A stretch of 33,290 bases of DNA from Anaerolineae bacterium (lineage in GTDB: Bacteria > Chloroflexota > Anaerolineae > J102), in the NCBI GenBank assembly GCA_026991225.1, contig JALXCB010000191.1:1-33290 (forward strand). Direction: 5' to 3'. Every line of letters begins with the position of its first letter. Position 1 is the stretch's first letter. Below are positions 2,932 to 28,441 of the stretch, in pieces. The translations under genes were made by a program, and so were the position numbers. The notes beneath the pieces are model-generated. The model was not told the origin of the DNA. It was given only the letters and a program-made list of their open reading frames with translations, and did no database searches.

Positions 2932-3020
2932 AAGTGCGCTGAGATTCCGCAGAGAACACCCAAAGTATAGCCCAAACGACCGCGCGACCAAATGACCGCG
3001 CGACCGCACGACAACCCCAT

Positions 3021-3147
3021 ACCCTCGCTGAAGACAGCAGGCGTCTCATCCGAGACTTAATCTCCTGCCGAGGCGAAGACAGCACGCCGGGATTTCCCTC
3101 CCAGTGATGACTACTGCCTTCGCGTCGGCCCGATGCGAAGGTTTTTT
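3021..3147 (+). promoter_or_regulatory. Ribosomal protein L10 leader RNA
   Basis: The rplA-rplJ gap contains the conserved L10-leader core: GAAGACAGCAGGCG (about 3029-3042), a GTCTC...GAGAC hairpin (3042-3055), then TTAATCTCCTGCCGAGGCGA (3057-3076). The CAGCAGG/CCTGC strands pair to make the kink-turn element that L10-(L12)4 binds in this RNA family. An intrinsic terminator follows at once, so repression by premature termination is the likely mechanism. Identified by remembered consensus, not by a covariance search. Confidence 0.88.
3117..3147 (+). terminator. Attenuator terminator of the L10 leader
   Basis: A 12-bp stem (3117-3128 with 3130-3141, one G-T pair) is followed by TTTTTT (3142-3147). 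It lies 30 bp before the rplJ start and directly after the L10-binding core. This is the expected off-switch for autoregulation of rplJ-rplL. Confidence 0.85.
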
Positions 3148-3161
3148 ATTATCTACAACCC

Positions 3162-24628: not shown

Positions 24629-24842
24629 GGGTGCGTTTCAAAAATGGGGCGCACTAGCCGACTCAAGTCGGGCGCTTCAGGCCTGCGGCCAGTGGACGGC
24701 CTCCGCCGTCCATTTTCACCGTATGCAACAGGTCGACGAAGGTCGACCACTGGCGCGAAGCGCCCAAAAGGCCCGAGTTTACTCGGCCAGTGCTTGGCGA
24801 CGAATCGACGATGATTTTTTGCCCCCAAATTGAAACGCACCC
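24629..24842. mobile_element. MITE-like element family C, copy C3 (214 bp)
   Basis: Perfect 12-bp TIRs GGGTGCGTTTCA, extending imperfectly to about 21 bp. Perfect 9-bp TSD CAAACGGTA at 24620-24628 and 24843-24851. The internal hairpin series is GGACGGC-CTCC-GCCGTCC, GGTCGAC-GAA-GGTCGACC, GGCGC-GAA-GCGCC and CCGAGT-TT-ACTCGG. No ORF. Confidence 0.92.
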
Positions 24843-26360: not shown

Positions 26361-26687
26361 TTACCGATAGAATCGGACGTCCGCTTTCTCCAGCGTCGCC
26401 AGCCCTTCCTTGATCTCCCGCTCCACCGAATCCAGATAGGCTTCCAGGCGGTCGCGAGTGTCGACGAGCTCCACGATGACGGGCAGATCCGTCGACAATC
26501 GCAGAATGCGGGCTGTGTGAATCCGGCTCTTCTTTCCGAAACCCATGATTCCGCGCACGACAGTCGCCCCGGCCAATCCCTGACGTTGGGCCTCCTCGAC
26601 CAGCCATTCATACAACGGGCGGCCATGGGCCCGATCATTCTCGCCGACGAAAATCCGTAGAAGACAGCCGTCTTTTTCGAATTCCAT
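26361..26687 (-). CDS. DUF190 (PII-like) protein
   Basis: This 108-residue protein matches the DUF190 pattern: an opening strand CLLRIFVGENDR, then the segment LVEEAQRQGLAGATVVRGIMGFG (quoted in part as GLAGATVVRGIMGFG) and LPVIVELVDTRDRLEAYLD. The fold is related to PII signalling trimers. It starts 5 bp after the crcB stop, with GGGAGC inside the end of crcB as ribosome-binding site, so the two are translationally linked. DUF190 genes often accompany crcB, which suggests a regulatory or accessory role in fluoride export, but the mechanism is not established. Confidence 0.88.
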   Translation of the reverse strand: MEFEKDGCLLRIFVGENDRAHGRPLYEWLVEEAQRQGLAGATVVRGIMGFGKKSRIHTARILRLSTDLPVIVELVDTRDRLEAYLDSVEREIKEGLATLEKADVRFYR

Positions 26688-26692
26688 GAGGC

Positions 26693-27076
26693 TTAGCTCC
26701 CGAAAGCGTAGGCCAGGGTTTGTCCTAACCAGACAGCGACCAGGCCCAGAAAGATGTTTGCGGTTATGTTCAACACCGCGGGCGTGGCGGCCCCATCCGC
26801 AAACAGGTTGAAGGTTTCGAGGCTGAAGGTGGAGAAGGTCGTGAAAGCGCCCAAAAAGCCGATGAAAATCAACATGCGGACTTCAGGGCTAAAGACATTT
26901 TGCATGAAGGCGTAACGCACCAGAAAGCCGAGAAGAAAGCTGCCAATGACATTGACGGCCAGGGTGCCATAGGGAAAATGCACGGATCGGCTGAGATCTT
27001 GCACCCAGCCCGCCATGAGGAACCGGCTGACAGCGCCCAGAAAGCCGCCAATGCCGATGATGAGTAATTTCGTCAT
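26693..27076 (-). CDS. crcB: Fluoride channel CrcB/FluC
   Basis: This 127-residue four-helix membrane protein forms a dual-topology dimer that lets fluoride leave the cell. Conserved elements are GIGGFLGAVSRF (about residues 7-18), the polar-track YGTLAVNVIGSFLLG (about 36-50) with its Asn, and the Phe-box and Na+-site segment GFLGAFTTFSTFSLE (about 73-87). Many bacteria have two crcB genes; here a single subunit pairs with DUF190. The upstream 5' region was hit by element B8, whose duplicated target begins 7 bp from ATG 27076. I see no fluoride riboswitch upstream. Confidence 0.93.
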   Translation of the reverse strand: MTKLLIIGIGGFLGAVSRFLMAGWVQDLSRSVHFPYGTLAVNVIGSFLLGFLVRYAFMQNVFSPEVRMLIFIGFLGAFTTFSTFSLETFNLFADGAATPAVLNITANIFLGLVAVWLGQTLAYAFGS

Positions 27077-27090
27077 AGTCGCTTCCGATG

Positions 27091-27549
27091 GTAACTATAC
27101 AGGTATCCAACAGAACGTCTTGCCACGAAGGCTCGAAGGGACGAAGGCGATGCAGGCTGATTGATTGACAAAACGCGTTTTGGTCTGCTGTGGTCGCCTA
27201 TGCTGTCGACTGAAGTCGTCCCATTCCAGGCCTGCGGCCAGTGGACGGCCTCCGCCGTCCATGTTCATGATGGAAATCAGGTCGACGAAGGTCGATCACA
27301 GGCGCGAAGCGCCTGAAGAGTCCGAGTTTACTCGGTGAATATGGTCGGAAAGGAAAGACTCAAGATTTGTCAGTCAACCAGCGATGCAGGTTTGCAAGTT
27401 CGCAGGCCACAAGTGGCAAGCCTTTCTGGCTGCAAGGTTTTTCACCTGCTACTTGCTACCTGCCACCTGCAACTTTTACCCTTCGTGCCTTCGTGTCGTC
27501 GTGTCTTCGTGGTTTTTGCCTCGCTATGAGGGGATACGTGTATAGTTAC
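27091..27549. mobile_element. Family B-like element B8 (459 bp), containing D1
   Basis: TIRs are GTAACTATACAGGTATCC and, inverted, GTAACTATACACGTATCC (17 of 18). The 8-bp TSD is TTCCGATG (27083-27090) and TTCTGATG (27550-27557). Internal words match B5 inverted (CCACGAAGGCTCGAAGGG, GCTACCTGCCACCTGC). Without D1 and one TSD copy it is about 225 bp. Both TIRs read outward contain TATAGT. Confidence 0.85.
27157..27381. mobile_element. MITE-like element D1 (225 bp), nested in B8
   Basis: TIRs are CTGATTGATTGACAAA and, inverted, CTGGTTGACTGACAAA (14 of 16). The 9-bp TSD CGATGCAGG is at 27148-27156 and 27382-27390; B5 holds a single copy of this target (13365-13373, inverted). The interior carries the same hairpin cassette as C3, identical in the GGCCTGCGGCCAGTGGACGG block. 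Confidence 0.9.
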
Positions 27550-27653
27550 TTCTGATGAAAAGGATAGGCAAACGCATCATAGATCACCCGGGCCGCGGGC
27601 GCAAATCCACGAACGCATCTCGGGCCGAAAGGGTTCGCCGCGCGCGGAGCGAC

Positions 27654-27682
27654 TTGCATTCGGGCGGGAAGGGGACTACAAT
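27654..27682 (+). promoter_or_regulatory. Promoter of pgl (probably leaderless)
   Basis: TTGCAT (27654-27659), 17-bp spacer, TACAAT (27677-27682), then 6 nt to ATG 27689. Transcription should begin at the start codon. Confidence 0.7.
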
Positions 27683-27688
27683 CCAGGC

Positions 27689-28441
27689 ATGAACACCCGT
27701 CCCTATGAAGTTCACGAATCCGATATCCTCATCCTCCGGGCGGCGGAGTTGCTGTCCTGGGTGGTCGAGGACGCCGTGAACGCCCGCGGCGTGGCCCACA
27801 TCGCCATCTCGGGCGGCTCCACGCCCCGCCCATTGTTCAAACTCCTGGCCGCGCCTCCGTGGCGGGAGCGCATTCCCTGGGGCCGAACCCATATCTGGTG
27901 GGTGGACGAACGCTGCGTCCCCCCCGACCATCCCCATAGCAACTTCGGCGTGGCCTACGCGCTGCTCCTGCAACACCTGCCCATCGTCATCACTCATCGC
28001 ATCCACGGCGAGGAGGACGATCCCCAACAAGCTGCCGCCCTTTACGAGCAGGAGATCACAACGACGATGGGCCTGGCCGCCTGGCAATGGCCCCGGTTCG
28101 ATCTGATCTTGCTGGGTATGGGCGCGGACGGTCACACCGCTTCCCTCTTTCCGGGCGATCCCGCGCTGACCGTGCGCGACCGTCTGGTCACGGTGGGCCA
28201 TGCCCCCACAGCACCTCGCGATCGGGTCACCCTCACCCTGCCTGTGCTCAACCAGGCCGCGCATGTGATCTTCCTGATCGCGGGCGCAGGTAAGGGGCCC
28301 GCCCTCCGCCGCGTCTTTCATAAAGAAGACCCCCAGCCCCTGCCCGCAGCTCTGGTGGAGCCGGAAAACGGCTATCTGCTGTGGCTGTTGGACCGGGATG
28401 CGGCCCGCGCCGCGGACATGCCTTTTCTGTCTTGTAGATAA
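27689..28441 (+). CDS. pgl: 6-phosphogluconolactonase
   Basis: This 250-residue enzyme hydrolyses 6-phosphogluconolactone to 6-phosphogluconate, step two of the oxidative pentose phosphate pathway. It has the SGGSTPRPLF phosphate-binding loop (about residues 36-45), WWVDERCVPPDHPHSN (about 71-86) and LILLGMGADGHTASLFPG (about 138-155), all hallmarks of the SugarP_isomerase-fold DevB/Pgl group. The length is normal. ATG 27689 lies 6 nt from a -10 box with no ribosome-binding site. It heads a pgl-tal-zwf set; a family E repeat separates it from tal. Confidence 0.94.
   Translation: MNTRPYEVHESDILILRAAELLSWVVEDAVNARGVAHIAISGGSTPRPLFKLLAAPPWRERIPWGRTHIWWVDERCVPPDHPHSNFGVAYALLLQHLPIVITHRIHGEEDDPQQAAALYEQEITTTMGLAAWQWPRFDLILLGMGADGHTASLFPGDPALTVRDRLVTVGHAPTAPRDRVTLTLPVLNQAAHVIFLIAGAGKGPALRRVFHKEDPQPLPAALVEPENGYLLWLLDRDAARAADMPFLSCR

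Follow-up and report, generated by a model that had tools for sequence, protein, structure and literature searches.

How is crcB expressed when a mobile element occupies its 5' edge? In the 33,290-nt stretch of an Anaerolineae genome analyzed here (hereafter, the window), a miniature inverted-repeat element, denoted Element B8, separates crcB from the divergent pgl-like gene. Such an element could carry a promoter, could have removed a promoter or riboswitch, or could be transcribed as part of the crcB leader.

A nested MITE at the 5' edge of crcB

The locus includes the following genes:

26361-26687, minus strand: DUF190 gene behind crcB (PF02641, 129.5 bits)
26693-27076, minus strand: crcB (PF02537, Pfam CRCB, 105.4 bits)
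27689-28441, plus strand: pgl-like gene, divergent from crcB (PF01182, 249 bits)

Elsewhere, the window contains a ribosomal protein L10 leader (3010-3156, 51.6 bits). The insertion itself consists of:

27083-27090, no strand: target duplication TTCCGATG
27091-27549, no strand: Element B8, composite MITE, 459 bp
27091-27108, no strand: terminal inverted repeat (TIR) adjoining crcB
27094-27099, minus strand: TATAGT toward crcB, without a convincing -35, read off the sequence
27532-27549, no strand: TIR adjoining pgl
27541-27546, plus strand: TATAGT toward pgl, without a convincing -35, read off the sequence
27550-27557, no strand: target duplication TTCTGATG

The two TIRs (GTAACTATACAGGTATCC / GTAACTATACACGTATCC) are 18 nt long and 94% complementary, the 8-bp duplication is 7/8 identical between its two copies, and B8 overlaps none of the listed ORFs of at least 80 aa. 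The initial annotation is correct in placing the start of the duplication at 7 bp, and that of the TIR at 15 bp, from the crcB ATG, and in noting an outward TATAGT at both ends of B8. The likely ribosome binding site of crcB, GGAAG, is intact and located between B8 and the ATG. Together, these features support the interpretation of B8 as a MITE-like insertion that parts crcB from its former upstream region.

B8 consists of a short MITE interrupted by an inserted hairpin-array element of 225 bp:

27148-27156, no strand: inner duplication CGATGCAGG, copy 1
27157-27381, no strand: inner hairpin-array element, 225 bp
27382-27390, no strand: inner duplication CGATGCAGG, copy 2

This nesting, one mobile element within another, is established by the 9-bp duplications flanking the inner element and by the outer-MITE copy on contig C111, where the corresponding stretch is single and uninterrupted, with one base of nine differing. 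The inner element, with the ends CTGATTGATTGACA/CTGGTTGACTGACA, was found in 27 full copies among 35 loci scanned; the 9-bp duplication is perfect in 21 of these, with one mismatch in four, two in one and six in one. Matches to the inner element (about positions 52-180) were detected in all nine same-genus genomes, with a single short or weak match each in G004 and G008, and in none of the 12 other genomes searched. A second hairpin array is present in the window at 24651-24800 (85% over the aligned part), where no surrounding B8-type MITE was seen.

The same composite occurs at C167:680-1138 (458/459 identical), where the 8-bp duplication is perfect and has another sequence, CTTTATTT; there it lies within a further MITE-like element, the flanks of which repeat TTACAGAC. 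The existence of at least two copies with different outer duplications shows that the nested composite has transposed as a unit. Each of the six inner hairpins is paired in 98-99% of the cells of an alignment of 44 copies (47 rows, from which three in reverse orientation were left out). Just 4 of the 33 pairs changed on both sides, and the case for structural selection on these hairpins is therefore slight; the inner array alone folds with a z-score of -3.80.

The outer MITE family

Within its own genome, B8 has at least 52 matching stretches, at least two of which span its full 459 bases; these counts are lower bounds because scoring was applied to 40 of the 501 candidates from a first look. 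The partial matches fall into two groups, one covering the outer parts of B8 (about 1-65 and 294-459) and the other covering the middle. A search with the TIR gave 87 matches, compared to 21 for the reversed control pattern. From the own-genome loci fetched, 33 TIR pairs of 143-589 bp were assembled, so that the family is both small in element size and repeated. The flanking bases of these pairs match at 8/8 positions in 18, 7/8 in six, 6/8 in one and 5/8 or fewer in eight; 24 of 33 pairs with seven or eight matching positions is above chance, and the family has a constant 8-bp target duplication. The larger copies, of 365-589 bp (G000:C17, C154, C69 and C73, respectively L129-L132), also hold inserts. 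By eye, the insert in C154 is a second MITE, that in C17 a second MITE with a hairpin array inside it, and that in C69 and C73 a hairpin array of a different kind.

The 22 unpaired TIRs were checked for an autonomous partner and none gave a long element; eight belong to a sister MITE that is shorter (145-156 bp) and one forms a possible 440-bp pair. As a mobilizer we considered IS66, the ends and duplication length of which presumably fit the MITE end sequence, GTAACTATAC, and the 8-bp duplication. There are three stretches matching IS66 in this genome, and no B8-like ends were seen at the two of these loci that were inspected (L219 and L221).

A promoter in the MITE?

According to the initial annotation, the TATAGT motifs at the ends of B8 could act as -10 elements, so that the MITE might supply a promoter. 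In favor of this proposal, TATAGT matches the consensus at five of six positions and, toward crcB, leaves 17 nt to the start codon, so that the geometry is possible; the transcript would begin about 10 nt ahead of the ATG. Combined with AAGACG at a spacer of 16, it scores 8/12, as does the native pair that persists in the window (see below), and outward-promoter MITEs exist (PMC10969869 and PMC6382973, in the portions available). The -35 part fares worse. At the crcB-facing end, the best candidate, AAGACG, does not exceed shuffles (p 0.39), and none of the 43 TATAGT-bearing ends, taken from copies with at least 6/8 matching flanks and each compared with 500 single-base shuffles, has a -35 with a shuffle p of 0.1 or below (median 0.45). 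A consensus scan found no 9/12 site on the crcB strand. The -10 thus occurs by itself, and none of the ends examined shows a -35/-10 pair amounting to a full outward promoter. Moreover, TATAGT belongs to the TIR, which transposition would be expected to conserve anyway.

The genomic distribution of the family points the same way. From 40 copies taken, seven with poor duplications were removed; among the 66 sides of the remaining 33, 58 have an ORF scored by simple codon usage rather than by a gene finder. Counted by distance from the copy, gene starts and stops number 14 and 13 within 100 bp, 13 and 8 at 100-300 bp, and 5 and 5 farther away. The copies appear to have no preference for gene starts, and nothing suggests that the family is kept for promoter supply. 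We therefore consider it unlikely that the crcB-facing end is a working promoter.

Predicted native promoters survive beyond B8

The region between crcB and pgl was compared with relatives that lack B8. In four same-genus genomes, G003, G006, G007 and G008, crcB and pgl are likewise divergent and B8 is absent, with gaps of 111, 288, 134 and 278 bp, respectively; the gap in the window, minus B8 and one duplication, is 145 bp. The predicted promoters are:

27576-27581, minus strand: surviving native crcB -10, TATGAT, conserved in the four same-genus relatives
27677-27682, plus strand: pgl -10, TACAAT, with TTGCAT 17 nt upstream

The window without B8 shares three 7-mers with G003, G007 and G008 (TATGATG, GATTGTA and ATTGTAG; G008 was compared without its own MITE, and G006 is nearly identical to G008), and no shared 7-mer was obtained in 300 sets of dinucleotide shuffles. 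Toward crcB, the relatives have a TT-type -35 at a spacer of 17: TTTACA in G003, TTTGCA in G007, and TTGGCG in G006 and G008. Toward pgl, TACAAT is accompanied by a TTG-type -35 at the same spacer. In G011, which belongs to another genus of the family, TTGCCG-17-TACGAT is found at the same divergent pair. G002 and G005, where crcB is present and no pgl match was found in the fetched stretch, were scanned for promoters only; the scan gave GCAACA-17-TATATT in G005 and nothing in G002.

These conserved motifs indicate that a predicted native crcB promoter survives beyond B8. TATGAT is now 499 nt from the start codon, compared to 32 nt in the joined empty site. Given that this conserved -10 persists past the insertion, expression need not begin in B8, contrary to the suggestion that it must start within the element. 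The -35 of crcB in the window, TTGCGC, matches at 3/6 positions with a shuffle p of 0.17, versus 0.00-0.06 in the four relatives, so that the native promoter may be decaying.

A role for B8 as the pgl promoter was considered and appears needless: the relatives conserve the pgl promoter, which in the window (TTGCAT-17-TACAAT) ends 6 nt before the pgl ATG, although the window -35 matches at 3/6 positions with p 0.16, versus 0.03-0.08 in the relatives. Between the -10 of pgl and its ATG, G006 and G008 (L046 and L047) carry a MITE of another type; in G008, the junction of the MITE end with the target again spells TACAAT, 6 nt from the ATG.

No fluoride riboswitch found at crcB in this genus

The initial annotation saw no fluoride riboswitch at crcB, and the Rfam model RF01734 agrees, with no match in the window at the gathering threshold and none in 26900-27720 at E-values up to 10. 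The further suggestion that a native riboswitch had been displaced by B8 is not supported by the comparison with relatives lacking the element. Seven of the nine genomes of the genus, own included, encode crcB, and in none of the seven does an RF01734 match adjoin the gene; matches are absent in three and, in the other four, lie elsewhere than on the contig of crcB. Permissive scanning of the window crcB locus and of seven such loci from relatives did not find RF01734 either. The lack of RF01734 matches beside crcB across the genus indicates that no riboswitch was displaced. The absence of a riboswitch next to a mobile element thus does not imply removal by that element, tempting as this inference is.

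The search covered 80 genomes, with stricter filters that lose some weak matches, and recovered the known arrangement, with RF01734 immediately preceding crcB, in 3 of 25 crcB-bearing genomes: G075 (56.3 bits), G077 (33.7 bits) and G015 (30.0 bits), the latter two below the 34-bit cut-off. The search method therefore works, and G015 belongs to the same family as the window genome. A match of 22.7 bits on contig C138 of the window genome, below the cut-off, was discarded: it is on a contig other than that of crcB and looks repeat-like by eye. A strong fluoride riboswitch (52.1 bits) was detected in G007 (C523:484-548, L072), also on a contig other than that of crcB. The 136-aa partial ORF beside it has no Pfam match, and the MutS identity suggested by likeness by eye was dropped.

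B8 as a probable structured leader of crcB

We consider it probable, at roughly 60%, that B8 is now a structured 5' leader of crcB, behind a native promoter that has been displaced and reads through. The nested MITE would have been inserted between the native promoter and the ribosome binding site, with transcription still starting mainly from the -10 at 27576-27581 and the transcript running through B8. The leader, formerly about 25 nt, would thus have grown to about 490 nt. The TIRs may pair in the RNA and close B8 into a single folded domain, with the intact GGAAG immediately after it; in this way, B8 would modulate the output of crcB, through processing, Rho or message stability, without being its source. 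For 27060-27575 on the minus strand, folding into such a TIR-closed domain is predicted (-193.5 kcal/mol; z-score -7.05 against 100 shuffles, in part reflecting the inverted repeats common to any MITE). A long untranslated insert can provoke Rho termination, which counts against this reading.

The opposite outcome, in which B8 silences or strongly lowers crcB as the native promoter is too far away and the insert blocks without providing a replacement, seems quite unlikely. It is favored by the 467 extra, heavily folded bases between the -10 and the gene and by the weakened -35, and it is opposed by the search of 26900-27750, in which no intrinsic terminator was found, and by the intact state of crcB and the DUF190 gene. 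The crcB of the window shares 78-79% identity with its counterparts in G003, G006, G007 and G008, with no visible decay (G003 versus the other three: 79%); this argument is weak because a recent insertion would leave no trace of decay. That the nest is an assembly artefact, with repeats mis-stitched in this metagenome-assembled genome, is barely credible: the genome is in 201 contigs and has a near-identical second composite copy, so that the interior could be a mixture, but the outer and inner duplications match here and, with different outer bases, at C167, and the flanks keep the gene order of the four relatives.

If B8 is indeed a transcribed leader, a broader and rather speculative extension, to which we give little credence, is that this type of MITE moves a captured, genus-specific hairpin array as cargo and installs a structured leader of ~490 nt before host genes. 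It would then be a mobile 5'-leader module, not a mobile promoter, with TIR closure keeping the ribosome binding site free. The four B8-free relatives offer a clean comparison for the effect of a nested MITE on a leader, in a little-studied genus of Anaerolineae.

Comparison with known elements

In the open-licence literature, we found no paper joining 'Anaerolineae' or 'crcB' with 'miniature inverted-repeat transposable'; promoters of insertion sequences in general are treated in the available portion of PMC9208149. The closest precedent is the Correia element of Neisseria meningitidis, which, in the excerpts of PMC2649163, separates mtrCDE from its native promoter and is transcribed and cut by RNase III. 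Like that element, B8 is short, has inverted ends and is located between the (predicted) native promoter and the gene, hence in the predicted leader. Unlike it, B8 is 459 bp long, nested and unrelated in sequence. The same excerpts report that Correia ends can also form promoters and provide the -35 of the Black promoter, for which B8 has no convincing counterpart. MITEAba12 of Acinetobacter resembles B8 in being non-autonomous and in having target duplications and putative outward promoters but, in the part of PMC6382973 that describes it, differs in its 9-bp duplications, an identified mobilizing IS and transcripts from one end. The accessible text of the review PMC10969869 lists several MITEs with sigma-70-like promoters, as well as small elements that cluster through insertion into each other, citing pneumococcal repeats. 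The B8 nest shares intergenic nesting with such clusters as described there, and differs in its at least two copies with different outer duplications, which show that it moved as one unit. Given the Correia precedent and this review of MITEs and nested elements, the kind of insertion is already known, and B8 at crcB is an ordinary case of it.
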